Part shown: one piece after another, positions 2 to 15,140 of the stretch
Numbering within the stretch: position 1 is the first letter of the stretch
Layout of the letters: the number at the start of each line of letters is the position of its first letter
DNA from: a virus
Strand: one strand, 5' to 3'
IMG/VR virus record: IMGVR_UViG_3300044993_000281
Location: 1-32,423 of that record
Length of the DNA stretch: 32,423 bases
The notes under the pieces: model-generated
What the model was told of the DNA's origin: nothing
The model's database searches: none
What the model saw: only the letters and a program-made list of their open reading frames with translations
Program-made: the position numbers and the translations under genes

Positions 2-3000
2 GACGATCCATTTACGATGGGGCACGAGTTCATACGGATGCTGACCCAAGACAAATTTTTCAATCAAGTCACGGAAAGCACGGAAATAGATGACGGGTTA
101 ATTGCCTATTTGCGCGAGTTGCTGGAGAAAATCGGTCGGCAACTTCGGAGTATGCTGGCCGATCCTGCCATAACCGATGCGGCCACACGTCAGGCTGTGC
201 GGGAAGCCGAGGGGTTGGTGGCCCGTCGCTTATCCGATCTTGGGGTAAAAAAAGAGGTTTCCGAAGGAGGACAGAAGCAGTTTAGTTCAAACAATGATTC
301 AACCAATTATCTATCGTTTGAACGGGGCACCACCTCCGCAGACAATCGAGGAGGTTTACTTGGAATTGAACGGGGAACTGGAATGGAGGAAGTTTCTCGA
401 CAAACACTTTCCGGTCGAGGAACTGCCCCTGTTTCGGTGGAAGCGGGAGAGGATGTTGCGCTTGCAGGCGAAGAGACTTCTCGCAAATTGCCCCCAGCGC
501 GTTTCTCTCAATTAGGCGATGTTGGCGTAGCCTACACGGACAACAATGACCCGGTGGAATACCGCTGGGCACTGGCGGAATTGGATGATTTGGTCATCAG
601 CAATGAAGACAGCGGGGCCATCAACCCGCGGTATCCGCAGGAATTGCAGCCACGGGACCGGAGCACGGCGGGCAGTCAAGCCCAAGTCAACGACATTGCC
701 AGGAACGCAAATTTCGACCGCCTGAGCTTTTCGGAGAGTGTTGGCAATGGGGCGCCTATTGTGGGGCCGAATGACGGTGTGGCGGAAAGCGGCAACGGGC
801 GCCTGATGGGTTTGCGCCGGGCCTACAATCTTGAACTTCCATCCATCAAAGTTTACCGGGAAAAACTGGCGGCAAACGCCGAAAAATTCGGTTTGGACGG
901 TTCCAAGGTGGCGGCGATGAAGAAACCGGTTCTGGTGCGGGTGCGCCAAACCACGCTGGATCGTCGCAAGTTTGTGGAAGTGGCCAACGTGTCGAACGTG
1001 GCTCCGATGCGGGAAATGGAGATTGCCCGGAAGGATGCGGCGAATCTTTCCCTTGGATTGTTTGAATTGTTCAATCCCGATGAGAACGGGAACATTTTAA
1101 CAGCGGGGAATCAGGATTTTATCCGGGCATTTGTCCTCAACGTGATTCCGCAAACCGAGAGGGCGGCCATTGTTGACAGCCGGGGCGGATTGTCGCAAAG
1201 CGGGCTTCGCCGGATTCGGAACGCGCTTTTTGTCTATGCCTACGGTGATTCCCCGGAGGCGATGAACGCCTTGGGCCGCATGGCCGAAGACATTGAGGCG
1301 GATGGCAGGAATATCACCAACGCACTGATTGCAGCGGCGCCCGTTTTCGCCCGCCAGAATGCCGCGATCAAAAACGGTTCCCTGCACGATGCGGGGATTA
1401 GCGGCGATCTTGTTGCTGCTGCACAAGCCCTGATGGAAATCCGTGCGCGTGGGGAACGGGTTTCTGATTATCTGCAACAAGGCCAGTTGATTGATGATGG
1501 CGTCACGCCGTTGCAACGGGAAATTTTGCAATTTCTTGACCAAAACGGGCGAAGCGCGAAGCGGATTTTGGAAACATTGCGCCGGTATGCGGTGGCTTTG
1601 GATGCGGCGGGCGACCCGCGTCAGGAACAGTTGTTGCAAATGGACGCCCCCACCAAAGAAAGCCTTTGGAATCTGGCGAAAAAGCCGAATGCTGAAGAGC
1701 CGATTTTGCAGTCTGGCAAGCGTGCGGTGGCTGCTCCGAACTGGATGCGTATTTACAACCGGCTGTTCAACATGGAACGGGCGGGGGCTCGCCTCAACGA
1801 GAGCCAGCGTTCGTTGCTGGAACGGGCAGAGCGCGAGTTGGGGCAAATCCTCATGTTTGCCGGAGAGGGATACGGTCCGGCCCCGCGTGGCGAGGGTGTT
1901 AACGTAGGAATTTTTGATGAAGGCCAGGATCAGGGCCGGTTGTTTGCCGGTCAACGTTCGGGCGAGCAGCTAGACCTTTTTGACACCCTTTCGGAATCCC
2001 AGCGCCGGGAAGTTCAGTCCCGCGAGTTGGATTTGTTCGGAAATCCGTTTACGGAATCCAAACCCACCCGTATTAGTAGTAAAAAAAGAAAGGCACCCGA
2101 TGAATCTGGACTACGACAAAGTGATGAGCTTTTTGGCCAATTCAACTTCCAAAGAGTTGAGCCAATGGAGCAAAAACTTGGACTTTTTGAAGAAGAAAAT
2201 GGTCCACGCTTACGTTCGGGATTGGGGCAATCTGGAACCGGATACACAGGAAGCACTGGAAGCAGCGACGGCGGACGGCAGTCTTTACGACCGGGCGGAA
2301 GAGAAGATTTATTACCTGATGAAACATCAGCCGGAGACATGGGAGGCGATCAAGCTGGCGGTGAACCAACTGGATCCGGACAGCGGGATCGCGGCGTTTC
2401 TGAATGGGTATTGACCCGACCACCTGCAGGATCGCCAGACCGAAACCACGTAATCCGCGAAGGCGACACACTGGCCCCGCGTGGGGACATTGCCCGCATC
2501 CGGGCCAACATTGACGCCATTCGGCTTTTACGCCGTTTGGAGGAAGAGGGGCGCAATCCCACTGTCGAGGAGAAGAAGATTCTGGCTCAATATGTTGGCT
2601 GGGGCGGCCTGCCGCAGGTGTTTGACGACGAGAAGGCAGCCGCCTTTGCAAATGACGAGCACAGAACGCGCCGAAGCACGGCGGACGTTTACGAGCGGTA
2701 TGGCCCCGCCTACTACAAGATAGTCGAGGACTACCGCAAGCAGGCCCAAGCGATTGAGAACTGGCATGAAAAGTGGGGCAAGTGGCACGCCGAACTGAAA
2801 GAACTGCTCACGCCGGAAGAATACTCTGCGGCGGCTGCCAGCACGCTCAATGCTCACTACACCAGCCCGGAGGTGATCCGGGCCATGTGGGACATGGCGC
2901 AAAGGCTGGGTTTCCGTGGTGGCTCCGTGCTTGAGCCTGCCGGTGGGGTTGGCCACTTCTTTGGTCTGATGCCGGAAGGTATTGCGGAATCCAGCCAGTT

Positions 3001-6000
3001 GAGTGCCGTCGAACTGGATAGTCTCACGGGCCGGATTCTCACCAAGCTGTATCCTGAGGCCGACGTTCAAGTGACGGGTTTTCAGGACGCAAAGATTCCT
3101 GACAATTCGGTTGATCTGGCCATTTCCAATGTGCCGTTCGCCAACATTTCCATTTTTGATCCGGAAATGGAAGCGGCGAAGGCTCCGAAATTTTCCCTGC
3201 ACAATTACTTTTTTGCCAAGGCGCTGCAAAAGGTGCGTCCGGGTGGGCTGATTGCCTTTATCACGACCAGCAACACGATGGATGCCAATGTCCGGCAACG
3301 GAAGTGGCTGGCGGAACGCAGCGAATTGATCGGAGCCATTCGCCTGCCCAATACGGCTTTCAACGAAAACGCCAACACGGAAGTCACCACGGATATTCTG
3401 TTTCTCCGCAAGCCGGACGGAACGCCGCCCGTTTTTGACCGGGAAGAATGGGCTTCGACCGCCGAAGCCAAGACCCGGAAGGGCGAGCCAATCCAGATCA
3501 ACGAATACTTTGTCCGGCACCCGGAAATGATCCTTGGGGAATTGGACAATGACGGCAAAATGTATGGCCGACCCGATGAAAAGGGTCAGATGACCGTGCA
3601 TCCATTCCAGGGGAAACCCCTTGCGGAATCGCTGTCCGAAGCTGCGGAACGCCTGCCCGCCAATGTCATTTTCACATCAGCCGAAGCCGTTCCTGAAAGA
3701 AACCAGCGGAGTCAACAAATTTGGCGTGAGACGCGCGGGAATAAAGTTGGAACTCTGAGCAAGTTGGACGACGGAAGCATTGTCATTTCCGGCGTATTCG
3801 ACCAAAATGAGGACATCCTGAAACCAAAAAACCGGAAGCTGGCCGAGGATTTCATTGCCTTGCGGGACACCCTCAATGCGCTTTACGAAAGCGAACTGAA
3901 TCCCGACGCGACCGACAGCCAGATCGAGGGGCAGCGCGAACTGCTTAACCGCCGCTACGATGCTTTTGTCCGGGATCATGGCAACCTGCATAAGTTTGTC
4001 GATTTGCTGGGCATCGACCCGGATTTTTACCGGCTGCTGGGCACGGAGATCGAGCAGAAGCCGGAAAATGCAGCGGAGTCCATCCGGGTCATTCTTTCCC
4101 GGAAAAAACGTTACCGGAAGGGCGATGTTTTCACCAAGCGGGTGCTTACCCCCCGGCGCGAGCCGGAAAAAGCGGAGACGGTGGAAGATGCCTTGGGAAT
4201 TTCGCTTGGATGGCGTGGCCGCATAGATGTTGATTTCATGGCCCGCTTGCTGAGCCGGGAACAAGCGGAGGTTGAAAACGAACTTCTGGTTGGAGGCATG
4301 GCTTTCCGCAACCCGGAGAGCGGACTGTTGGAAACCCGCGAAGAATACCTGAGCGGGAACGTGCGAAAGAAGCTTCGCGTGGCGGAGATTAAGGCGGCGG
4401 AAGACCCGGCCTATGGTCCGAATGTGGAGGCATTGCAACGGGTGCAGCCGGAAGACGTGAAGATTGCGGACATCAAGATGAAGTTGGGAAGCGCATGGAT
4501 TCCTGCCGATGTTGTGCAAAGGTTCGCCCGTCAGATTTTTGATTCCGAGGCCGTGGATGTGATCTACCACCCCGGACGCGGGGAAATGATCGAAGATTCT
4601 TGGGAAATCCGATACGGCGGAAAGGGGACGGCGGCCACTGGAAATCTTACGGCTGCCATGTCGCAGATTTACGGCACCAATCGCATGTCCGGGCTGGCCC
4701 TTTTGGAAAAAGCGTTGAACCTGCAACAGCCGGAAATTTACGACACCAATAATGACGGAAAGACCCGGATATTCAATCCGACTGCGACCACCCAGGCAAA
4801 GGTGGCGATGCAAAAAATCAAAGATGCTTTCGATCAGTGGGTGCAGCGGAATCCCGATGTGCAGGAGGAATTGGCGAAGGTTTACAACGAGGTCAACAAC
4901 TCCCATGTGCTTCGGCAGTATGACGGGCAATTCCTGCAATTCCCTTGGATGGCCGCGGGCTTTGATCTTTTTTCCGAAAAGAAAAACGTGGTTTGGCGGG
5001 CGATTCAGGATGGGCGAATGTTGATTGCGCACGGCGTGGGTGGTGGCAAGACCATCATTGGCACGTCGATTGCAATGGAACTCAAGAGGCTGGGACAGGC
5101 TCGGAAGCCGCTGATTGTCGTCCACAATGCCACGCTGGAACAGTTTGCCGGAACGATCAACGCAATGGCCCCCACCGCTCGCGTGCTTGTTGCCCGGAAA
5201 AAAGACTTGGAAGGGAAGAAGCGCAAAGAGTTCATGGCCAAAGTCGCGGCGGGGGATTGGGATGCCGTGGTAATGGCGCATTCCAGCTTTGACATGATTC
5301 CCGATGATCCGGCTTACGAGGCCAAACTGATCAACGAGTTGCAGGAGGAATTGCGGGATGCCATCACGGAAATGGGAGGCAATCCAGACGGAGACGCCCG
5401 GAAAACCAAAGACCCCACCGTGAAGGAAATGCAAAAACAGCTTGCCCGGCTGGGAGAACGCATGAAGGAATTGCAAGACCGCAAGCGCGACGATGTGCTG
5501 AATTTCCAGGAGCTTGGCATTGATGCCCTGATTCTTGACGAGGCCCACCTTTACAAAAAAATTCCATTCGTCACAAAGTTGCGGCGCATTGCCGGGATTG
5601 ACAACGGTGCCAGCAAGCGGGGCACCGCCCTGATGACGAAGGTGCGGTTTATCCAAGAGAAAAACAAGGGCCGGAACGTGTTTACCATGACGGGAACCCC
5701 CGTCACGAACACGTTGGGCGAGTCTTGGAATATGATTCGCTTGGTGGCTCCCGATCTGCTCAAGGAATTTAATGTCGAGAACTTCGATCGCTTTGTTTCG
5801 ACCTTTGCCGACATTGTGAACAGCGCGGAACTCCGCGCCAACGGCGCTTACAAGCAAATTGATCGCTTGGCCGCCCTAGCCAACCTGCCGGAATGGAACA
5901 GGTTTTTCCGTCTCGGCGCAGACGTGAAAATGGGTGAGGACATGCAGGTGCGGGGCCGACCAGAAATCAAGGGTGGCAAGCCGGAACTCGTTGCGGTGGA

Positions 6001-9000
6001 AAGGACGCCGCAGGTCTCCAAGTTCACCGACTTCATCAAGGGAGTGATCGATTGGTATGACAACTTGGACGGCAAGCAAAAAAAAGAGTTCAGCCATCTT
6101 CCCCTTGTGACTTACAACGCCGCAAAGATGGCGGCCATTGACATCCGGCTGGTCGATCCCCAAGCCAAGGATGAGCCAGGCAGCAAGGTGAACATTGCTT
6201 TGAAAAAGGTTGTGGAACTTTACCGCCGCACCAATGATTACCTTGGCACGCAGGTTATTTTTGCCGACAGCTTCCGGCCGCTGAAAAGCACGGCGTTGGA
6301 TATAAGTGCGGCGGATTTGGAACCGGGCGAATCGCTGGATGATGATGAAAAAGCCGAGCGCGAAGCGGATGCGGCAGGAGGTTTCAATCTCTATCGGGAC
6401 ATGAAAGCCAAGCTGGTTGCTTCCGGCATCCCGGAAGCCGAGATTGCGATAATTTCCGACTACGACACCGACAAGAAAAAGGAGCGCCTTTTTGAACAAG
6501 TCAACGAAGGCCAAGTGCGCATCGTCATTGGCAGCACGCAACGGCTTGGCACCGGGGTGAACATGCAACGGCGCATGATTGCGGCACACCATCTGGACGT
6601 GCCTTGGACACCGGCGGAACTTGAACAGCGGGACGGGCGGGTTTACCGGCAAGGGAACATTCATTCCGAGCTTGGCGTGCCGGTCGAGATTTACCGTTAC
6701 GGGATGAAGGATACTCTTGACGCTGCCCTGTGGCAAAAGCTGGAAACCAAGGAACGGTTTATCAAGCAGGCATTGAGCGGGAAAATGAATTCCCGCAGCA
6801 TCGAGGATGATACCGGGCTGCTGAATTTGGCGGAACAGAAGGCTGTGCTTTCCGGCCCGCTGGGGATGCGGAAATTCGAGGCCGACCAGCGTGTGCGTGA
6901 ATTGCAAGCCGAGGAACGGGCTTGGCGCATGAGTGTGGCGGAAGCGGGCCAGAATGCGAGCAAAGCATCCAAGTGGCGGAGAATAGCCGAAGGTGGCTTG
7001 GCCAAAGCCCGGCGAACTCTGGAATCCGTAAAATCGTGGAGCGGGCCGGTTTCTTTGGAAATTGGCGGGAGGTCGGCCAAAGGTGCGGAACAAGCCACGG
7101 AATTGCTGAAAAGTGTCTTCGAGGAGCGATTGAGCCTGATCCGTTCCATTGCCAATCCAAGCACCAGCCCCCGCGCAAATTCTCCGATGGGCAAAGCATT
7201 TTTCAACGGAACCGAGATTGAATTGGGCCGCCCCTCCATCAACGAACGGCTTGGTGAAAGCAAACCGGAAAACCGCTGGCGTATAGAAGTGCCAATTCTT
7301 TTCAACGGGGAGCCCATTGGTTCGGCGCAGTCGGCTGGATGGGTTTTGCGGCGTTTGCAGGAATTTCCTGCTTCCGTTGAGGAAACCATTGTGCGCTTGC
7401 AGCGGGAAATTGATCGCTACCAGAAACAGGAAGACGCGGCTCTGAAACAAATGGAAGGGGCTTTTCCGAAACAAGCCGAGCTGGAAGCAGCCCTTCTTGA
7501 ACAGTCCGAAGTCATGCGGTTGGTGAGTGAGAAGCCCGGCGAACAAGAAAACACACTAAATGATACGAATAGTGAAACCATACCTTCCTTAGCTTCCGGC
7601 GAACGTGCTCGTGGGCAGATTGGCATAAAATCAATTGACCGGGATTCTTTGGCAGCGTATTTACAAGAAGGAGGTGCTTCCGCGCAGGAGGCAAAACAAG
7701 AAAGTGAGCGAATTTCCCGAACCTTGGAACAGTCTTCCGGAGGCCGAGTGGCCGAAGCGGGAGGCTACATACAGAGCGATCTCTTTATTGATTCGCCGAG
7801 CCAACCGGGAGGGCCGGACCAAGGCCGCTCAAAGGCTGGCAAAAAGGCTGCCCTTGCAATCAACCCCGCCGCAGAAAGTGCCTCGGCTGACCTCATAGCC
7901 GGGCTGCAAGGTGACTGGGAGGCACTGGCGCGTGAAGTGGCCGCCAAGGGCCGCGCATCCAGCATTTTTCAATCACTGGTTTCAAGAGAAATCCCCACTT
8001 GGGACGTTCGCGGGAGCCGCATCAGCTCCCCTCAAGACGTTCTAAATCTTATCGCTCCAATTCGTTCCCCGTTCTTTGAATCGCTCAAAGTGGCAATTCT
8101 GGATGGCAAAGACCGCGTTGTAGCCAGCAAAATTCTCTTTGTCGGAAGCCTCAACGAAAGTGTAGCGGACCCGAAAGCCTTGTTCGGCGAGCTGGCACTA
8201 CTTCGCGAGCAAACCGGCAAAAACTATTCGAGAATCATCTTTTCTCACAACCATCCGAGTGGAGACCCAACCCCATCTACAGCCGATAATAATCTGACTC
8301 GAAGAATTGTCGAAATTGCAAATCTCGCGAAATGGACCGTTGTTGATCACGTCATCACCAATGGAGAACAGTTTTTTTCTTTTCGCGAAGCGGGAATTAT
8401 TTATCAGCCCAACGTTGCAACAGATAGGACGGAATCTCCGACACCTCCACCAACGCCGCCATCCCAGCAGCCCTCTCAACAGAAATGGGAGGTTGTTCCC
8501 CGCAGTAAACTTCAAAGGATGGACGCATTTGAATACGCCAGGGATTTGGCCAAGCACCTCCGCAACGCAAATCCAGATGCCGCGCATATAATTTACCTGA
8601 GCACAAAATTAACTCTCATTGGCGTTGAAAGGATTGATGTAAACACGCTTGACTCGGAACATGAGCTAACCAAAACCCTCATTGCCGGAGCTGCCAGGGA
8701 AGGCGCGTATGCGTTTATTGTTGATGCGCCGTCCACCAATTCTTTTTCAGACAAAGGGCCATCTTTCCGTGATTTCGATCGAGCAAAAAGAATCAAAGAC
8801 ATTGCCAATGCAATAAATCTACAATTTTTAGACTTGTTGCATATATGGCCGGATGGAAATAGCACGAGTTATAAAGAAAAAGGCTTCGTCTTGGAGAGTC
8901 CTTCATTCATGTGGTCGGCGAGCAAAAAGCCCGGCGAACAAGAAAACACACTAAATGATACGAATAGTGAAACCATACCTTCCTTAGCTTCTGGCGAACG

Positions 9001-12000
9001 TGCTCGTGGGCAACTCATGTTTGACTTTGGACTTTATCGCAATCCGGGCGAGTTTGATTTCACCGACCGGGGCAAGGCACCCGGTGATTTGGTGAAAGAA
9101 AACATGGGTTTGGCGACCGCCATTGCCAATGATTTTTCGAACATTTCAGGCGTGGAGAAGGATGATGTGATCCAACAGGCGCGGGTTGCGTTGGTCAAGG
9201 CTGCAAAAGCCTACGATCCGTCCAGGGGTGTTCGGTTTGGGGTTTATGCGGGCCGGGCCATAAGGAATGAATTGTCTTCTCTTTACGGAAAACAGAGTCG
9301 GAGAACATCGCTTGAAGGCGATTCTCTGGATCGTCCGTTGGAAAATGCACCCGGTGAAACTGTCATGGATACCATTGCCGGGGAAAATGCCTGGAACGTG
9401 ATTGCCCCGGTGGAGCGCAATGAAACCAGAGACATCCTGAAAGGTTTATTGGCAAAGCTTCCAGAGCGGCCTCGCGCCATTGTCGAAGGATTCATGGCCG
9501 GGGAGAGCGGCGAGGAAATTGCGGCCCGGATGGGAATAACCCGGCAGGCGGTCAACGCGAGCTTGCAGGGAGCGTTGGCCGTTATGCGCCAGCGTTTGCG
9601 GGAACGGGGATTCAAGGGACAGGAAGATGGAGTGCTTTTTTCCGGTGAGCGTGACGATGAAAATTCGCCTGAAGACCTTTTTGCGGAACTGAACCGTGAA
9701 CTTCCCAGCCAGGAGGAAATTGACGAGCTTCGGCAAAAAGCGGCTGCGGAACCAATCGGCCAGCGCACCATCGGGCAGCCCCGAAAGGCAAACTATGCCG
9801 AAGACGACGCGACGCGGGTGGAAATCAACGTGGTTCAGCAAATGCGGGAAGAGGCCCGCAAGCGTGAGGAAGAAAGCGCGTGGATTGCGGAGGCTCGGAA
9901 GCGAATCGAAACCAACCGGGATTTGGCCAAGAAGGAAATTTTGCAGAAGGCCATGAACCCGGCCAAGTTTGGCACGTTTACGGCGGTGGACGTGAAAACA
10001 GCTCAGTTGCTTGTGCCGGAACTCATGCGGGAAGCCTACCGATCCGGTGACAAAACCAAGCAACGCGAGGCGTTTGCTTTGGCGTGGGCCTACGATGCTG
10101 GGGGGAGCGACCAAGCACGCGCCTTTGCTGCCCGGCGTGATCCGTTCAAGACCCCAGCCGAACGCCACATGGAATTTTTGACCAAGATGATTTCCACACC
10201 CACGGCGGAGCAACGGAAGTGGATTGCCCAAGCCGCCACGCAGGAAGAGAAAGCGCAGAGGCTGGAACAGGCCCAAAACGAACGGCTGGCGAAGATCGAG
10301 AAAGCGCTGGCCGACATGGGTGTGACTCTTGAAGACATCTTCGCCGGAGAAGCCTCCGTTGTGCTCAAGAGTGCCACGTTTGTGCAAAACGCCATCAAGT
10401 CTTTTGGGAAAGAGGAAGAGCGCAAGGTGATCCGCCTGACGCTGGATGGATTTTCCGACAAGGAAATTGCCAAGAAAACCCGGCTTTCGATCAAGGATAT
10501 TCAGGCCGTGCAAGACCGCATGGACGAAATTCTGGCCAAACGATTGGGAGAGTATGCCGAGCGTGGGTTTACCGCCGCTGATCTGGAAACCCTTGACATT
10601 TCCGAACTGTTTGCCGGTGAGAAGCCGGAGGTTCGCAAGGTGGCTCTTACTCCCGATCAAAAAGCAAAAATCGTGGCGGAAATGTTGCGGAAAATCCGAC
10701 CCGACCGGGAGGTGAGGAACAGCAAAAAGCTGGTGAAGCGCCGGAAGCCCCGCCGCAAACTTGAAAACCAAGCAGGGAGCGACGCGGAACGGGAAGCGTA
10801 TGAGAACGAACAGCCGTGGGAATATGTCGGGTTTGACCCTGGGAATCAGGATCAGGTGATTCGGGTGGCCCGGCTTGTGCAGGCTGCCGACGCCAACGCC
10901 ATCGACATGTTCTACGAAGCGTGGATTAACAGCATCCTTTCCGGCCCGCAGACCCAAGTGGTCAATATCATGGGCAATGCCGCGAATGCCCTGTGGGATT
11001 TCATGGTCCAGCGCCCGATGGAGGCCGCCATCAATGCCGCCTTGGTGAAGGATGCAGACGCGGCCAGTTTTGGAGAACTGCGTTACTTATTCCGTGGTGC
11101 CATTCCGGGCATAATCAAAGGATGGCAAGCCGGAATACGGGCATGGAACGCGGAACATGACTTTTTCGAGTCTGAAAAGCTCAACCAGCAAATCGAGTTT
11201 GAGGAATTTGACAAGGCGGGTGACATCAAGGTGACAATTCCCGGAAAGACTGGACGGTTCATCCGCATTTCGGGCCGTGCGCTGATGTTCATGGACAGCT
11301 TTTTCAAATATGCCACGGGGCAGATGGAAGCTGGAGCGCAAGCTTACCGCCTAGGCAAGGCCCAAGGCTTGGAGGGGCAGGCGTTGGAGGATTTTATCCG
11401 GTCGGAAATCAACCTACCCGGCAGCATGTCGTGGCAGCGGGCCGTGGCAAAGGCTAAGGATTTGACTTTCCAGACCGCCCTGCCCAAGGATGGCATTGGC
11501 GGTGTCGTTCGCAAGATCGGGGAAATACGCCGGGGAAAATCCACGTCCATCGGCGGGCGCTTGATGGAATTGTTCCTTGGCATGACGTTCCCCTTCATCC
11601 GCACGCCTTACAACATCTTCCGAATTGGCCTCCGCAAGAGTCCGCTGGGGGCGCTGAATGTTGCCTACCATATTCGCCAAGGCTTTTATTCGATGAAGAA
11701 AGGCCGACCTTTTGTTGAGGGATATTCCAAAGCCCAGCTTGTATCTGATTTGGCGGAACAGACGCTTGCATGGGTGGGAATGGCACTTTTGTGGGGAATG
11801 GTCGAAGGTGATGGTGAGGATGATGACGATGACAAGATGATTTTGATCACGGGTTCACGGCCCTACGGGGTTGACCGACAAGGGGAAAGGGATGCGCTTA
11901 ACCGCATGTATGGCGGCCCTTATCAAATCCGCATCGGCGGGAGGAATGGCATTTATTTCAACTACGGGCGGATCGAGCCATTTGCGACCGTGCTGGGCAC

Positions 12001-12721
12001 GGTGGCGGATATGGTCCGGCTGGCCAAGAGCCGGGATGCTTCGGATGCGGGCATCAAATTGTTTGGCTACTTCATGGCCCAAGCCAACGAGAAAACCTTT
12101 TTGCAGGGCTTTTCCACCATTACGGACACCATTGACGGAGCCATGCGTGATCCGAAGTCTGTGGCCAAGGCGTGGGAACGCCAGTTCCTTTCCGGCTTGG
12201 TTCCCAATATCATCCGTCAACCTCTGCGAAATTTGGATGATTTTGTCCGGGACAGCAAATACGCCGGGTTGGATTACACCCTGTTCGCCGCGCCAAACAT
12301 GGCCGAAAAGCGGGTGAATCTTTACGGCGAAGACATGCAGAAGCAGGGCAGTGGTCTTTCCCGCCTGTTCTTTGTTTCGGGTATCAAGCCGACGGAAACC
12401 CTGAAAACAGGTGACAGGTTTCTTGTGAATTGGAACGAAAAGAACCGGGATGCAGCCTACTGGCCGGAACGCCCGAACTCGTCTTTCTACCGCTTGAAAA
12501 ATCGCTTCGGAGAGCTTGTGGAAATGACTCCTGGGCAAATTGCCACCTTGGACAAAATGGCCGGGCATGCTTTTGAGCGCAAGTTGCGGAAATGGCTGAC
12601 CCCATCCCGCGCCATGAACCCGACCGAGGCTGATTTGAAAAGGTTCAAAGAAGACCTGAGCGACGCACGGCGCGAGGCCAAAGAAACCATCGCCCGCCGC
12701 GCCCTTCTTGTGTCTCCCTGA
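2..12721 (+). CDS. Giant phage polyvalent protein (ddrB/ParB-like, N6-methylase, SNF2 helicase, RadC-like, sigma-70-like, virion C-terminus); 5' partial
   Basis: The frame is open from base 2 and the first ATG (17) has no ribosome site, so the N-terminus probably lies upstream. Residues are numbered from that ATG. Residues 160-530 are ddrB/ParB-like (NPRYPQELQPRDR at 203, then ESGNGR). Residues 780-1130 are an N6-adenine methylase (LEPAGGVG at 972, NVPF at 1038). Residues 1650-2290 are an SNF2-like helicase (GVGGGKT at 1673, DEAH at 1841, QRDGRVYRQG at 2204). Residues 2640-2795 are RadC-like (SHNHPSGD at 2743), and a weaker JAB-like copy follows to about 2960. Residues 3000-3200 resemble sigma-70 regions 2 and 4. 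From 3600 to the end the sequence looks like the C-terminus of phage DarB-like or ejection proteins, with a hydrophobic stretch near 3917 followed by an acidic run. Methylase plus helicase architecture is known from P1 DarB-type anti-restriction proteins carried in the head. The position just before the portal gene fits a virion protein. Delivery with the DNA is inferred. Confidence 0.93.
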   Translation, partial: DDPFTMGHEFIRMLTQDKFFNQVTESTEIDDGLIAYLRELLEKIGRQLRSMLADPAITDAATRQAVREAEGLVARRLSDLGVKKEVSEGGQKQFSSNNDSTNYLSFERGTTSADNRGGLLGIERGTGMEEVSRQTLSGRGTAPVSVEAGEDVALAGEETSRKLPPARFSQLGDVGVAYTDNNDPVEYRWALAELDDLVISNEDSGAINPRYPQELQPRDRSTAGSQAQVNDIARNANFDRLSFSESVGNGAPIVGPNDGVAESGNGRLMGLRRAYNLELPSIKVYREKLAANAEKFGLDGSKVAAMKKPVLVRVRQTTLDRRKFVEVANVSNVAPMREMEIARKDAANLSLGLFELFNPDENGNILTAGNQDFIRAFVLNVIPQTERAAIVDSRGGLSQSGLRRIRNALFVYAYGDSPEAMNALGRMAEDIEADGRNITNALIAAAPVFARQNAAIKNGSLHDAGISGDLVAAAQALMEIRARGERVSDYLQQGQLIDDGVTPLQREILQFLDQNGRSAKRILETLRRYAVALDAAGDPRQEQLLQMDAPTKESLWNLAKKPNAEEPILQSGKRAVAAPNWMRIYNRLFNMERAGARLNESQRSLLERAERELGQILMFAGEGYGPAPRGEGVNVGIFDEGQDQGRLFAGQRSGEQLDLFDTLSESQRREVQSRELDLFGNPFTESKPTRISSKKRKAPDESGLRQSDELFGQFNFQRVEPMEQKLGLFEEENGPRLRSGLGQSGTGYTGSTGSSDGGRQSLRPGGREDLLPDETSAGDMGGDQAGGEPTGSGQRDRGVSEWVLTRPPAGSPDRNHVIREGDTLAPRGDIARIRANIDAIRLLRRLEEEGRNPTVEEKKILAQYVGWGGLPQVFDDEKAAAFANDEHRTRRSTADVYERYGPAYYKIVEDYRKQAQAIENWHEKWGKWHAELKELLTPEEYSAAAASTLNAHYTSPEVIRAMWDMAQRLGFRGGSVLEPAGGVGHFFGLMPEGIAESSQLSAVELDSLTGRILTKLYPEADVQVTGFQDAKIPDNSVDLAISNVPFANISIFDPEMEAAKAPKFSLHNYFFAKALQKVRPGGLIAFITTSNTMDANVRQRKWLAERSELIGAIRLPNTAFNENANTEVTTDILFLRKPDGTPPVFDREEWASTAEAKTRKGEPIQINEYFVRHPEMILGELDNDGKMYGRPDEKGQMTVHPFQGKPLAESLSEAAERLPANVIFTSAEAVPERNQRSQQIWRETRGNKVGTLSKLDDGSIVISGVFDQNEDILKPKNRKLAEDFIALRDTLNALYESELNPDATDSQIEGQRELLNRRYDAFVRDHGNLHKFVDLLGIDPDFYRLLGTEIEQKPENAAESIRVILSRKKRYRKGDVFTKRVLTPRREPEKAETVEDALGISLGWRGRIDVDFMARLLSREQAEVENELLVGGMAFRNPESGLLETREEYLSGNVRKKLRVAEIKAAEDPAYGPNVEALQRVQPEDVKIADIKMKLGSAWIPADVVQRFARQIFDSEAVDVIYHPGRGEMIEDSWEIRYGGKGTAATGNLTAAMSQIYGTNRMSGLALLEKALNLQQPEIYDTNNDGKTRIFNPTATTQAKVAMQKIKDAFDQWVQRNPDVQEELAKVYNEVNNSHVLRQYDGQFLQFPWMAAGFDLFSEKKNVVWRAIQDGRMLIAHGVGGGKTIIGTSIAMELKRLGQARKPLIVVHNATLEQFAGTINAMAPTARVLVARKKDLEGKKRKEFMAKVAAGDWDAVVMAHSSFDMIPDDPAYEAKLINELQEELRDAITEMGGNPDGDARKTKDPTVKEMQKQLARLGERMKELQDRKRDDVLNFQELGIDALILDEAHLYKKIPFVTKLRRIAGIDNGASKRGTALMTKVRFIQEKNKGRNVFTMTGTPVTNTLGESWNMIRLVAPDLLKEFNVENFDRFVSTFADIVNSAELRANGAYKQIDRLAALANLPEWNRFFRLGADVKMGEDMQVRGRPEIKGGKPELVAVERTPQVSKFTDFIKGVIDWYDNLDGKQKKEFSHLPLVTYNAAKMAAIDIRLVDPQAKDEPGSKVNIALKKVVELYRRTNDYLGTQVIFADSFRPLKSTALDISAADLEPGESLDDDEKAEREADAAGGFNLYRDMKAKLVASGIPEAEIAIISDYDTDKKKERLFEQVNEGQVRIVIGSTQRLGTGVNMQRRMIAAHHLDVPWTPAELEQRDGRVYRQGNIHSELGVPVEIYRYGMKDTLDAALWQKLETKERFIKQALSGKMNSRSIEDDTGLLNLAEQKAVLSGPLGMRKFEADQRVRELQAEERAWRMSVAEAGQNASKASKWRRIAEGGLAKARRTLESVKSWSGPVSLEIGGRSAKGAEQATELLKSVFEERLSLIRSIANPSTSPRANSPMGKAFFNGTEIELGRPSINERLGESKPENRWRIEVPILFNGEPIGSAQSAGWVLRRLQEFPASVEETIVRLQREIDRYQKQEDAALKQMEGAFPKQAELEAALLEQSEVMRLVSEKPGEQENTLNDTNSETIPSLASGERARGQIGIKSIDRDSLAAYLQEGGASAQEAKQESERISRTLEQSSGGRVAEAGGYIQSDLFIDSPSQPGGPDQGRSKAGKKAALAINPAAESASADLIAGLQGDWEALAREVAAKGRASSIFQSLVSREIPTWDVRGSRISSPQDVLNLIAPIRSPFFESLKVAILDGKDRVVASKILFVGSLNESVADPKALFGELALLREQTGKNYSRIIFSHNHPSGDPTPSTADNNLTRRIVEIANLAKWTVVDHVITNGEQFFSFREAGIIYQPNVATDRTESPTPPPTPPSQQPSQQKWEVVPRSKLQRMDAFEYARDLAKHLRNANPDAAHIIYLSTKLTLIGVERIDVNTLDSEHELTKTLIAGAAREGAYAFIVDAPSTNSFSDKGPSFRDFDRAKRIKDIANAINLQFLDLLHIWPDGNSTSYKEKGFVLESPSFMWSASKKPGEQENTLNDTNSETIPSLASGERARGQLMFDFGLYRNPGEFDFTDRGKAPGDLVKENMGLATAIANDFSNISGVEKDDVIQQARVALVKAAKAYDPSRGVRFGVYAGRAIRNELSSLYGKQSRRTSLEGDSLDRPLENAPGETVMDTIAGENAWNVIAPVERNETRDILKGLLAKLPERPRAIVEGFMAGESGEEIAARMGITRQAVNASLQGALAVMRQRLRERGFKGQEDGVLFSGERDDENSPEDLFAELNRELPSQEEIDELRQKAAAEPIGQRTIGQPRKANYAEDDATRVEINVVQQMREEARKREEESAWIAEARKRIETNRDLAKKEILQKAMNPAKFGTFTAVDVKTAQLLVPELMREAYRSGDKTKQREAFALAWAYDAGGSDQARAFAARRDPFKTPAERHMEFLTKMISTPTAEQRKWIAQAATQEEKAQRLEQAQNERLAKIEKALADMGVTLEDIFAGEASVVLKSATFVQNAIKSFGKEEERKVIRLTLDGFSDKEIAKKTRLSIKDIQAVQDRMDEILAKRLGEYAERGFTAADLETLDISELFAGEKPEVRKVALTPDQKAKIVAEMLRKIRPDREVRNSKKLVKRRKPRRKLENQAGSDAEREAYENEQPWEYVGFDPGNQDQVIRVARLVQAADANAIDMFYEAWINSILSGPQTQVVNIMGNAANALWDFMVQRPMEAAINAALVKDADAASFGELRYLFRGAIPGIIKGWQAGIRAWNAEHDFFESEKLNQQIEFEEFDKAGDIKVTIPGKTGRFIRISGRALMFMDSFFKYATGQMEAGAQAYRLGKAQGLEGQALEDFIRSEINLPGSMSWQRAVAKAKDLTFQTALPKDGIGGVVRKIGEIRRGKSTSIGGRLMELFLGMTFPFIRTPYNIFRIGLRKSPLGALNVAYHIRQGFYSMKKGRPFVEGYSKAQLVSDLAEQTLAWVGMALLWGMVEGDGEDDDDDKMILITGSRPYGVDRQGERDALNRMYGGPYQIRIGGRNGIYFNYGRIEPFATVLGTVADMVRLAKSRDASDAGIKLFGYFMAQANEKTFLQGFSTITDTIDGAMRDPKSVAKAWERQFLSGLVPNIIRQPLRNLDDFVRDSKYAGLDYTLFAAPNMAEKRVNLYGEDMQKQGSGLSRLFFVSGIKPTETLKTGDRFLVNWNEKNRDAAYWPERPNSSFYRLKNRFGELVEMTPGQIATLDKMAGHAFERKLRKWLTPSRAMNPTEADLKRFKEDLSDARREAKETIARRALLVSP
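294..515 (+). CDS. Candidate overprinted small gene, 73 aa
   Basis: This ORF lies in the +1 frame relative to the giant gene, over a linker whose main-frame translation is Gly/Ser/Glu-rich and low in complexity. The overprinted product has balanced composition and looks like a real helical protein (for example TIEEVYLELNGELEWRKFL), with codons similar to neighbouring genes. It stops just where the main frame becomes ordered again, before the ddrB/ParB-like domain. A GGAGG lies at 266-270, but 23 bases upstream of the ATG, which is far for a ribosome site. I recognise no family. It could be a functional nested gene, a relic of a small gene absorbed when two larger genes fused, or chance. Confidence 0.4.
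   Translation: MIQPIIYRLNGAPPPQTIEEVYLELNGELEWRKFLDKHFPVEELPLFRWKRERMLRLQAKRLLANCPQRVSLN
2100..2414 (+). CDS. Candidate overprinted gene, 104 aa, in the linker before the methylase domain
   Basis: The ATG at 2100 follows an AAAGG stretch about nine bases upstream, and the ORF runs 104 codons in the +1 frame of the giant gene. Its translation is well mixed and predicted helical: MNLDYDKVMSFLANSTSKEL at the start, DWGNLEPDTQEALEAATADG in the middle, IAAFLNGY at the end. Over the same bases the main frame is a repetitive Gly/Ser/Thr/Asp linker. This is the pattern expected when the +1 frame is the older or more constrained coding frame. No family is recognised. It may be an expressed nested gene or the remnant of a small gene between the ParB-like and methylase genes before they fused. 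Confidence 0.5.
   Translation: MNLDYDKVMSFLANSTSKELSQWSKNLDFLKKKMVHAYVRDWGNLEPDTQEALEAATADGSLYDRAEEKIYYLMKHQPETWEAIKLAVNQLDPDSGIAAFLNGY
7532..7617 (+). repeat. 86-bp direct repeat, copy 1
   Basis: This copy matches 8927-9012 with one mismatch in 86 bases (C at 7597, T at 8992). The offset is 1,395 bases, exactly 465 codons, so both copies are read in the same frame and give the same peptide from KPGEQENTLNDTNSET to SGERARGQ. The core is AT-rich, with ATA, TTA and CTA codons that look uncommon in the flanking sequence. Within the repeat the 9-mer CCGGCGAAC occurs at 7536 and again at 7596. The copy lies at the junction between the helicase part and the RadC-like cassette. Confidence 0.97.
7618..8926 (+). 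other. RadC-like (JAB/MPN) cassette within the giant gene, between direct repeats
   Basis: The segment between the two 86-bp repeats encodes a RadC-like fold: LFVGSLNESVADPKALF, then SHNHPSGDPTPS (residue 2743 onward), then VVDHVITNGEQFFSF. The His-x-His-Pro-Ser-Gly and downstream Asp fit the JAMM metal site of RadC/JAB proteins. After a proline-rich spacer (about 8430-8470) comes a second domain of about 130 residues ending in LLHIWPDGNSTSYKEKGFVL, which looks like a divergent copy of the same fold with its metal site altered. The stretch is visibly more AT-rich than its flanks. In-frame repeats at both ends suggest that the block was gained, or can be lost, as a unit by recombination. Confidence 0.75.
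7704..7898 (+). CDS. Candidate overprinted small gene, 64 aa, in the linker before the RadC-like domain
   Basis: A GTG at 7704 follows AGGAGG at 7686-7691. The 64-codon ORF is again in the +1 frame of the giant gene and covers a main-frame linker rich in Gly, Ser, Pro and Ala. Its product is basic and helical-looking, starting MSEFPEPWNSLPEAEWPKRE and continuing with ISLLIRRANREGRTKAAQRL. It is the third such ORF in the same relative frame, and all three sit at domain junctions. No family is recognised. The evidence is weaker than for 2100-2414, because the start codon is GTG and the spacing to the ribosome site is 12 bases. Confidence 0.33.
   Translation: MSEFPEPWNSLPEAEWPKREATYRAISLLIRRANREGRTKAAQRLAKRLPLQSTPPQKVPRLTS
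8927..9012 (+). repeat. 86-bp direct repeat, copy 2
   Basis: This copy is identical to 7532-7617 except at 8992. It lies directly before the sigma-70-like domain, which starts at about 9014. Recombination between the copies would remove exactly 465 codons and keep the giant frame open, joining the helicase part to the sigma-like part. Confidence 0.97.
9014..9640 (+). other. Sigma-70-like domain (regions 2 and 4) within the giant protein
   Basis: Residues 3023-3087 read like sigma region 2: DLVKENMGLATAIANDF, then DDVIQQARVALVKAAKAYDP, then RGVRFGVYAGRAIRNEL, matching the usual alternation of DLxQEGxxGLxxAxxxFDP and FxxYAxxxIRxxI motifs. Residues 3140-3196 read like region 4: LLAKLPERPRAIVEGFMAGE, then EEIAARMGITRQAVNASLQG, a helix-turn-helix. 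The two are joined by about 50 residues, the spacing of compact group 3/4 sigma factors. Finding a sigma-like module fused into a DNA-modifying, probably virion-carried protein is unusual. Whether it binds core RNA polymerase is inference. Confidence 0.75.
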
Positions 12722-12760: not shown

Positions 12761-12937
12761 ATGCAAAAATTCCGGGTTTACTACGACGATCCGAGCGACG
12801 GCGCTCGTTGCACACAGGTCGTGCAAGCCTCCGGTCCATTGGAAGCCACTGAAGACATCCGGCAATTAGGCGGAAAAATCCGCAAGGTAAAAATCATCAC
12901 GGAACAAGGAGAGGAGGCTTATTGTGAACAGCCCTGA
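12761..12937 (+). CDS. Small conserved-looking protein between the giant gene and portal, 58 aa
   Basis: A short acidic/basic mixed protein (MQKFRVYYDDPSDGARCTQV at the start) predicted as alpha/beta, without membrane segments. I do not recognise a family. An in-frame ATG at 12749 would add four residues, but it falls inside the candidate -10 element and has no ribosome site, so the ATG at 12761 is preferred. The end overlaps the portal start by 14 bases, and the portal ribosome site lies inside this gene, so the two are probably translated from one message. Confidence 0.7.
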   Translation: MQKFRVYYDDPSDGARCTQVVQASGPLEATEDIRQLGGKIRKVKIITEQGEEAYCEQP

Positions 12938-15140
12938 AAACGACCAGTTGACGAATTTCGTCAAGCAAATACAGGACATTGTTCCCGTGCCGGATTTCGG
13001 CGCGGACGGACAAGACCTGCCGCGGATTCCCTTTCCAACATCTTACCTTCTGTCAGGCCAGCAGGAAAAAGACCTGATCGAGCACGCTTTGCGCCGCCTT
13101 CGGGAACTTGAAGATGAGTTGGGTCGTTCTTGCACGGGGGATTCCAATTGGTATGAGAGCATTGACTATTCGGAACTCGGACGGCGCTCTTTTTTGGGAA
13201 AGCGGCAGCTTTACGAGATGCTTTACCACAATCAGGTGGACTGGCGGCCACACTTGCTGGGGGGCATTTTCAACGACAGCAATTTGATTGTGCCGCTGTC
13301 CCGCCGCATTGTGCGGCAGATGGTTGCACGGGCGAACAATTATTTTTTTGCGACCGACCCGTGGTTTGCGGTCTATCCGGTAGGCGTGGCCGACCGCGAG
13401 TTGGCGAGCGACATTGAGCGTTACACCCGGTTCAAATTTGATCAAAGCCGCCAGAAACATGTGCTTGAATTGGCGGTGGAACTAGCCTTTGTGCGGGGCG
13501 AAGCCGTGGTGAAGACCACCTACGAGTCTAGGGAACAGCTTTACCAAGAACAGGCATCTGTGCTGGTGGACGAACAAGGGGCGGATATTCTGGATGCTAG
13601 CGGGGATTACATTGTCGAAACCGATCTGTGGGTGGCGGAAACGGAAACGGAAATCAACCCACAGACTGGCCAGCCCGGCGCCCCGCTTCCAACCGGGCGC
13701 ATGGTTCTCAAGCGCGATGGGGTGACGCCAAAACCTGCCAAGATGATTTTTCAATCCAAGCTCATCACCCGAAAGATCACCCATTTCAAGGGGGCGGAGT
13801 CGGCCATTGTTTTTTACAAGGATTTTCTCTGTCCGCTGAATGCGCCCAGCGTTCAGGATGCGGATTGCATTGTCCACCTTTACGACATGCCGGTGATGCG
13901 CTTGGCGGACATGTATCAGCGCAAGGCGATGCTGGACATGAGCAACGAGGAATCCATGAGAGCCACCCAGCGGGCGGTGGAATTGATCCGCAACATGGCT
14001 TTCGAGAGTGGTCGGCCCAAAGCGTTCAAAAATCAAAACCGCCCGGAACTTGGCGAGGATACGGGCACGACAGAGCGGACGGAACCGGTGGTTGAAATCG
14101 CGGAGTTTCATTTGCGCTACGACGCCAACGGCGACGGCATCATGGAAGACATCATGCTGGTCATCGACCGAAAGAATCAGGTGCCGATTTTCTACGACTA
14201 CGAAGCGAACGTGACGCCGGACGGCCTGCGTCCCTTCGATGTGGTGAGGATCAACGAAGTGGATGGACGCTGGCACGGGATCGGGGCGATGGAAATGTTT
14301 GAGTCTTCGCAGGAAATCGTTGATCTGTTGGTCAATCGCTGGAATTTCAGCCAGAGTCGCGCGGCGCGGGTTGATTTGTGGAGTCCGCACAACACGGTTG
14401 AGGGCGATTCCAACAAGAACCTGCAACTGAATTGGGGCAGAACTTACACGCCAAAGCCGGGAAAGACGGCGAAAGATATTTTGGAATTTGTCACGCTCCC
14501 GGACGTGAAGCACGAGGCACTGAAAAACATGTTCGAGTTTTTCATGCAGATGGCGACGAACGAAAGCGGCGTGGCCAACGCGAACGATGCACGAGCGGTG
14601 GGCTTGGATACCGCCGAATTAGCGACCGGCGTGCGGAATATCGAAAAGAGCGGGCAGGAGATGTTTTCTCTTTATCTCTCCCACTTGGAACCGGGATTGC
14701 AGAGCATCATTCAGCGTGCGATGGGGCTGATTTTTGCCAACTTGGATCAGGAGGAAGTGTTCGTATTTTTTGAGGGTGACAAGCAATCCTTCGGCATGAT
14801 CCGGCCTGAAGATGTGCAGGATTTGGAATTGAATGTTTCCCTGCTTTTGACCCGCTACCGTGGCGAACAGCTTTTGCAGAGTTCCATGCAGGCCGCCAAT
14901 CTGGTGACGCAGTTTTATTCCCACCTGCCGGAAATTCAGGTGCGGGTGGCACCGCTTTACCGGGACATGCTCAAGGCGCTGCAAATCAATTTTGCTGACG
15001 AAATCATTGTGCCGCTTGCTGCCCCGCCGATGGGGACAGGGCCATCGGGAACTGCACCGGGCACCCCCAAGGTGAATCCTGAGGAGGCCGTGCAAGCCGT
15101 CCAGCCCAAACCGCCGGGGCAGAGCCAGCCGAACTTCTAA
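12924..15140 (+). CDS. Portal protein (podovirus type)
   Basis: A 738-residue protein that forms the dodecameric DNA-entry vertex of the head. It starts at a GTG preceded by GAGGAGG. It has the features of large podovirus portals: an N-terminal helical region with IVRQMVARANNYFFATDPWF, a central acidic/hydrophobic part with EIAEFHLRYDANGDGIMEDI, then ESSQEIVDLLVNRWNFSQSR, and a Pro/Gln/Gly-rich flexible tail (GTGPSGTAPGTPKVNPEE). Length and gene order (portal, then scaffold-like protein, then capsid protein) support the call. No terminase is seen in the window. The assignment rests on overall resemblance by eye, not on a single catalytic motif. Confidence 0.85.
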   Translation: MNSPENDQLTNFVKQIQDIVPVPDFGADGQDLPRIPFPTSYLLSGQQEKDLIEHALRRLRELEDELGRSCTGDSNWYESIDYSELGRRSFLGKRQLYEMLYHNQVDWRPHLLGGIFNDSNLIVPLSRRIVRQMVARANNYFFATDPWFAVYPVGVADRELASDIERYTRFKFDQSRQKHVLELAVELAFVRGEAVVKTTYESREQLYQEQASVLVDEQGADILDASGDYIVETDLWVAETETEINPQTGQPGAPLPTGRMVLKRDGVTPKPAKMIFQSKLITRKITHFKGAESAIVFYKDFLCPLNAPSVQDADCIVHLYDMPVMRLADMYQRKAMLDMSNEESMRATQRAVELIRNMAFESGRPKAFKNQNRPELGEDTGTTERTEPVVEIAEFHLRYDANGDGIMEDIMLVIDRKNQVPIFYDYEANVTPDGLRPFDVVRINEVDGRWHGIGAMEMFESSQEIVDLLVNRWNFSQSRAARVDLWSPHNTVEGDSNKNLQLNWGRTYTPKPGKTAKDILEFVTLPDVKHEALKNMFEFFMQMATNESGVANANDARAVGLDTAELATGVRNIEKSGQEMFSLYLSHLEPGLQSIIQRAMGLIFANLDQEEVFVFFEGDKQSFGMIRPEDVQDLELNVSLLLTRYRGEQLLQSSMQAANLVTQFYSHLPEIQVRVAPLYRDMLKALQINFADEIIVPLAAPPMGTGPSGTAPGTPKVNPEEAVQAVQPKPPGQSQPNF

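Follow-up and report, generated by a model that had tools for sequence, protein, structure and literature searches.

The stretch of DNA analysed here, referred to below as the window, comprises the 32,423 bases of a viral record, the first 12.7 kb of which form one open frame coding for a giant polyvalent (DarB-type) protein (2 to 12721, plus strand, as for all features described below). The frame is still open at the 5′ edge of the window and the 5′ end of the gene is missing, i.e., 4239 residues are encoded inside the window and the true length is at least 4239 aa; the giant proteins of relatives have approximately 1450 aa extra ahead of the point that matches the window's start. Its domains follow one another in the order ddrB-like ParB domain (542 to 946, residues 181-315; Pfam PF18763, 4.4e-28), DarB-like methylase-helicase region (2765 to 7582, residues 922-2527; phrog_10089, E 0), in which the methylase precedes an SNF2 helicase made up of an SNF2 motor (5018-5878; PF00176) and a Helicase_C domain (6464-6655; PF00271), RadC-like JAB domain (8021 to 8395, residues 2674-2798; PF04002, 1.9e-31), sigma-70 family module (9014 to 9640, residues 3005-3213, in frame with the giant protein), and a C-terminal region resembling the internal virion proteins of T7-like phages (10802 to 12718, residues 3601-4239). 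A first-pass annotation had spoken of a methylase-helicase giant protein, a description with which the match to the DarB-like antirestriction family phrog_10089 fully agrees.

The giant gene adjoins a portal protein gene (12924 to 15140; phrog_1216; SU10_portal PF23899, 5.9e-25), followed on the 3′ side by the genes for the major head protein, further head and tail proteins and an endolysin, as well as by those of a Sak4-like annealing protein and an ssDNA-binding-like protein. Judging by sequence, the giant protein is of the DarB/polyvalent type, in which unrelated activities are gathered in one polypeptide encoded in a late-gene context. A portal homologue was found at 14 of the 19 loci searched, mostly a short way downstream of the giant gene, and was not found for L016, L096, L100, L239 and L173 within the available stretch of each locus. 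For the portal protein of the window itself, a tblastn search of 50,697 phage records gave no match at E 1e-10; hence, the phage group seems to be without a deposited isolate.

The giant protein also contains two strings, QLDLF and QSDLF, at residues 656 and 2591 (about 1967 and 7772), which resemble the beta-clamp-binding motif. The QLDLF site, on the 5′ side of the methylase, is matched by counterparts in the L010 group and in L173. Across 19 giants, the clamp-like motif has 7 matches (four of which are near-copies) vs. a mean of 0.5 and a maximum of 3 in 200 shuffles.

The Sigma-70 Family Module

The first-pass annotation had placed a sigma-70-like module at 9014 to 9640, and in a Pfam search of the whole giant protein both of its regions exceed their curated cut-offs. 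Region 2 (2.1 to 2.4, also aligned to RpoS), the part of sigma factors responsible for core binding and −10 recognition, is matched by Sigma70_r2 (PF04542) at residues 3030-3101 (9089 to 9304; 38.7 bits for a cut-off of 24, E 9e-10), and region 4, with its helix-turn-helix, by Sigma70_r4_2 (PF08281) at residues 3145-3192 (9434 to 9577; 36.3 bits for a cut-off of 25.7, E 4.4e-9). The module is further matched by the NCBIfam sigma-70 superfamily model TIGR02937 (66.7 bits vs. a cut-off of 42.9) and by the PHROG sigma family phrog_351 (E 8e-25). Compared with the PDB, a profile of ten family members retrieves proteins that are all sigma factors by name among its best 60 matches (E 9.3e-25 to 1.1e-12), including RpoS (9e-25 to 2e-23), SigA, RpoD, FliA, RpoH, and WhiG. 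Since the family profile finds sigma factors in the PDB and the module recurs in 16 further contigs, a chance match can be set aside, and the presence of a sigma-70 family module within a DarB-type giant protein is close to certain.

The two regions had been described as standing in normal order and at normal spacing. The order holds and the spacing does not: the two Pfam matches are separated by about 43 residues in which no region 3 domain was seen, a short arrangement as in ECF sigma factors. This gap contains a region 3.2 (sigma finger)-like linker, SLDRPL...MDTI (9323 to 9388), aligned with RpoS ahead of region 4, also by the family profile. The layout of the module is ECF-like, i.e., short, with region 2, a finger-like linker and region 4.

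An AlphaFold2 model computed from a ten-sequence alignment of sigma modules (mean pLDDT 69.3, pTM 0.42) forms both helical domains, with pLDDT values of about 72-89 across most helix blocks and below 50 at the ends and over most of the region 3.2-like linker. According to VIA-align 2, the region 2 model superposes on the E. coli sigma-70 fragment 1sig (Z 10.6, 1.5 Å over 74 residues) and on SigE (8b3z_B; Z 11.4, 2.2 Å over 75), and the region 4 model on SigD (3vfz_A; Z 10.0, 1.2 Å over 61 residues). The top VIA-align row is the ECF factor SigL (6dv9_F; Z 11.5, 156 residues), with an rmsd of 21.8 and the two domains placed differently. Such Z values can arise by chance between helical folds; the fold match is nonetheless credited because the sequence matches concur. 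The region 2 helices, on whose presence the proposal of a sigma factor had been made to depend, are found in the predicted model, and at that level the proposal withstands the check.

The face predicted to contact core polymerase is partly altered. Compared with RpoS, region 2.2 retains an acidic residue and a Q, and this Q, as well as the R three places on, is invariant across ten members. At the positions that presumably correspond to E407 and N409 in E. coli sigma-70 numbering, the window has Q and R, the R being invariant across ten members; neither equivalent is kept. In region 2.3 of the window, F and Y are retained and the tryptophan pair is not. The stand-alone sigma-like protein of L006, SigK-like in style, shows similar changes and is likewise without the equivalents of both E407 and N409. 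The altered face is read as an alternative-sigma pattern rather than as decay.

Substitutions counted by the Nei-Gojobori method indicate how the module evolves. L010 and L014 differ by 0 nonsynonymous and 23 synonymous changes (dN/dS 0.00), L010 and L011 by 3 and 37 (dN/dS 0.02), L011 and L014 by 3 and 40, and L016 and L096 by 18 and 47 (dN/dS 0.10). The sigma module is under strong purifying selection in close pairs. In distant pairs the changes are saturated or nearly so, and some ratios are higher, up to 0.83 (L018-L100). The family diverges fast, its members being 28-35% identical to the window's module.

Distribution and Exchange of Modules

Two methylase-helicase alignments used as queries returned 80 viral loci each, from partly shared records, and PF04542 was searched for in the 111 distinct records (50, 30, and 31) behind methylase-helicase loci, many of which are fragments. 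It was detected inside a frame of at least 4482 aa in 10 of the 111 records, in a separate frame of 244 aa in one, and below the cut-off in a 70-aa frame in another, and was not detected in the other 99. All ten sigma-bearing giants are among the 15 records most similar to it, at 44-58% to the window over the helicase portion, the other five of which are without sigma (L012, L015, L017, L019, and L068). A scan with the sigma alignment gave 17 loci, nine from records already known and eight new, the latter consisting of six giant frames cut by the start of the locus or contig and two stand-alone frames. In total, 17 contigs, i.e., the window and 16 others, carry the module in a giant frame, and they fall into about nine lineages (the window; L010/L011/L013/L014/L248/L250/L252; L016/L096; L239; L018; L099; L100; L102/L244; L241). 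PF04542 was found in none of six annotated or fecal DarB-type records (L002-L005, L008, and L009), and the sigma profile found no giant-borne module at 60 genome_contigs loci with flanks of up to 10 kb. Alignment queries were needed, as single-query scans for close relatives, using the sigma module, the methylase-helicase or the C-terminus alone, gave no confirmed loci.

Matches to the sigma module also occur in 39 phage records, and in the two whose frames were read (H8/L006 and H1/L007) they correspond to sigma-like proteins encoded on their own, 242 and 233 aa in length. In the sigma tree, giant-borne modules all lie on one side of a branch supported at just 46/31, for which reason a single origin of these modules is not established; L254 and L253 form long branches. 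Two further domains were observed in related giants. The sigma-bearing giant of L241 (L241:3-2720) has a zeta-toxin-like kinase domain (3.1e-32) after ddrB-ParB, and the SNF2 helicase of L173 has, at its Walker A site, an insert of about 365 aa with a LAGLIDADG match (L173:10195-11295), probably an intein.

The content of the stretch between the helicase and the C-terminus varies. In sister giants without sigma, it holds ART-PolyVal in L012 and L173, RadC in L019 and L015, and no Pfam-recognised domain in L068 and L174. In L239, the segment ahead of sigma (L239:3-8000) gives matches to a Strawberry-notch-type helicase and to a methyltransferase; nowhere does it align with the methylase-helicase of the window. 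The sigma module and the C-terminus of L239 are each, in two trees, nearest kin of their L016/L096 counterparts, and because both kept this kinship while the methylase-helicase was exchanged, they act as one unit in L239.

In the window, RadC and sigma are present in the same giant protein. The RadC segment is flanked by two copies of an 86-bp direct repeat, one in the linker ahead of the segment (7532 to 7617) and the other immediately 5′ of the sigma module (8927 to 9012), which are identical at 85 of 86 bases as counted from their alignment. Given this flanking repeat, and given that the sigma module comes directly after the helicase in L010, L011, L013, and L014, the RadC segment may be a recent insertion accompanied by linker duplication, and recombination could remove it. 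A passage of Iyer et al. (2017; PMC5512222) reports RadC in polyvalent proteins only from conjugative elements; compared with that survey, RadC is found here in a phage polyvalent protein, and also in L015 and L019. The L015 frame (L015:15971-24424), which runs off the locus on either side and measures at least 8142 aa, combines RadC with a DarA_C domain.

Probable Delivery and Proposed Role in Transcription at Entry

The giant protein had been proposed to travel with the DNA, and homology supports this well. Its C-terminal region gives tblastn matches to 9 phage records, with 6 of the 9 rows named internal virion protein, and the PHROG internal virion protein family phrog_6651 matches the C-terminus in all 11 members tested. 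The C-terminal model is poor (mean pLDDT 59.5), so that its Foldseek matches in BFVD, which are internal virion proteins, are taken only as backing for the sequence matches; the C-terminal profile has no sequence match in the PDB at E up to 1. Among DarB-like proteins, JC1 gp69 (4515 aa) was detected by 51 unique peptides in CsCl-purified virions, as described in a section of PMC9144972, and P1 DarB is presented in part of PMC9024508 as a virion protein believed to enter the cell. The portal homologue close to most of the giant genes is also counted in favour of delivery. That the giant protein of the window is likewise carried in the virion is thus likely.

Iyer et al. argue, in a passage of their survey, that a phage entering a cell must first of all get transcription under way; the polyvalent answers named there are an N4-like polymerase and protein-modifying enzymes (PMC5512222). 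The phages considered here seem to depend on host polymerase, in that no T7-like RNA polymerase (PF00940) was found in any of 16 clade records, window included, most of which are fragments and two of which (G001 and G004) look complete by their end repeats. This search covered the T7-like type; PF00940 was silent in 14 control genomes, and the phage S-CBP2, added as a positive control, was matched at 9.6e-78.

The explanation that we somewhat favour is that an alternative sigma factor delivered by the virion recruits host RNA polymerase to the incoming phage DNA. Sigma homology, a predicted fold, conservation with selection, and the architecture of the giant protein are the observations from which it starts. 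A sigma-70 factor of short, ECF-like layout would form part of a DarB-type polyvalent protein that is packaged in the virion and enters the cell together with the phage DNA. Whether still attached to the giant protein or cleaved from it, the sigma module would bind host core RNA polymerase, and the bound enzyme would be directed to phage early promoters; the methylase-helicase part would meanwhile shield the DNA from restriction. We infer the packaging of the window's protein, its entry, the binding of polymerase and the choice of promoters.

Several observations bear on this explanation. In L012 and L173 this slot is filled by ART-PolyVal and, the injected T4 Alt being a modifier of RNA polymerase, this is counted in favour of a role in transcription. 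Also in favour is the joint persistence of sigma and C-terminus in L239. On the other hand, RadC or nothing recognised is found there in sister phages, hence the slot is not reserved for transcription, which counts against. Also weighing against are the loss of the E407 and N409 equivalents, the fast divergence of the sigma family, and the fact that no HExxH peptidase motif able to release the sigma module was found in the 4239 aa of the giant protein. The promoter motif search that the first-pass annotation had called for was run on upstream and intergenic regions of relatives and yielded nothing convincing. A motif finder was applied to the upstream regions of four relatives, with crude gene calls (longest frames), and compared with 3 mononucleotide shuffles: the G004 motif scored 89 vs. 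75-78 in shuffles, but its string resembles a ribosome-binding site; the G009 motif scored 80 vs. 66-75, from just 11 regions; and those of G083 and G081 were not above shuffles. Spaced 5-mer pairs, sought between the genes of five relatives with similarly crude gene calls, recurred in 3 regions at most vs. 2-3 in 10 dinucleotide shuffles each. The absence of a convincing shared promoter motif is likewise held against sigma activity at entry. With all this considered, we still lean slightly toward a module that serves host polymerase as a sigma factor when the phage enters.

An alternative, which we regard as unlikely, is that the module binds core polymerase and either competes with host sigmas, leading to host shutdown, or tethers the methylase-helicase to polymerase or DNA. 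The altered core-binding positions and the promoter searches just described would fit a decoy or tether, as would the SNF2-like nature of the neighbouring motor, RapA being an SNF2 protein that acts on RNA polymerase, according to titles cited in PMC5512222; yet most members keep the helix-turn-helix of region 4 as well as the finger-like linker, neither of which a mere decoy would need, and the module persists in L239, where the SNF2 motor has been replaced. The location of the giant gene among structural genes would suit a true sigma factor that acts late in the producing cell, from newly synthesised giant protein, and whose presence in the virion is incidental. This is improbable: making a late sigma factor within so large a polypeptide would presumably take long and cost much, and both the virion-protein-like C-terminus and the kinship with DarB favour delivery. 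It is quite improbable, too, that the module is a worn sigma relic retained as a mere DNA-binding or structural spacer, as could be supposed from the low identity between lineages and from L018 and L099, where Pfam at E 0.01 leaves region 4 unreported; the dN/dS values of three close pairs and the fold that both domains hold in the window's model speak against a relic. Finally, an assembly artefact joining a host sigma gene to a phage gene, as the 86-bp repeat flanking the RadC segment beside the module might suggest, has a negligible probability and is ruled out by independent contigs, since sixteen others, from differently numbered metagenome records, have the same fusion in uninterrupted frames.

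Comparison with Known Injected Proteins

The known ways for a phage to secure early transcription are strong early promoters, the injection of a polymerase, and the injection of an enzyme that modifies host polymerase. If the preferred reading, a virion-delivered sigma factor acting at entry, is true, a packaged sigma would be a further solution beside the N4 polymerase and T4 Alt, and would explain how a phage uses promoters that host sigma factors ignore; injected giant proteins would moreover amount to a swappable cargo system. Whether this is an uncultured phage lineage with a virion-delivered sigma, in which the delivery C-terminus serves as a chassis and the slot receives sigma, an ADP-ribosyltransferase or RadC as cargo, is to our mind evenly balanced. 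The sigma reading is testable with a protein of 209 residues.

With respect to architecture, the closest described counterparts are JC1 gp69 and Atu_ph08 gp21, from Bcep22-like and PBC5-like podoviruses, which, like the window's protein, combine a methylase and an SNF2 helicase, are about 4500-4900 aa long, and are 35-36% identical to it over the methylase-helicase part. The window's protein also shares with the polyvalent proteins (PMC5512222) the combination of disparate domains in each polypeptide, the late-gene setting, the ddrB-ParB domain, and the helicase. In the main text of that survey (Iyer et al., 2017), “sigma” and “RpoD” have 0 occurrences each. Searches of open-licence literature turned up no paper that, by its title or abstract, treats a sigma domain in an injected protein, and a jumbo-phage survey, in passages that deal with them, treats phage sigma factors solely as separate factors (PMC7824862). 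In the absence of a sigma precedent in the literature searched, what is new here is the sigma cargo, the injected polyvalent protein being already known. Stand-alone phage sigmas, such as those of the Bacillus phages SP8 and Goe8, are phage-encoded members of the sigma-70 family too, but are separate genes by annotation and do not belong to a virion protein.

With respect to function, T4 Alt is described in a passage of PMC5512222 as an injected ADP-ribosyltransferase that modifies RNA polymerase and turns it to the phage. Alt acts by covalent ADP-ribosylation, whereas a sigma factor is found here, and ART-PolyVal shares the slot in L012 and L173. The N4 virion RNA polymerase (gp50) is, according to a passage of the same survey, a very large multidomain virion protein responsible for early transcription on entry (PMC5512222). 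Like gp50, the window's protein is a very large multidomain protein of a virion-delivered type, which we propose to serve early transcription. Unlike N4, which brings a whole T7-like RNA polymerase into the cell, the present phage would bring a sigma module alone; as no T7-like polymerase was found in the 16 clade records, the core polymerase of the host would be required.
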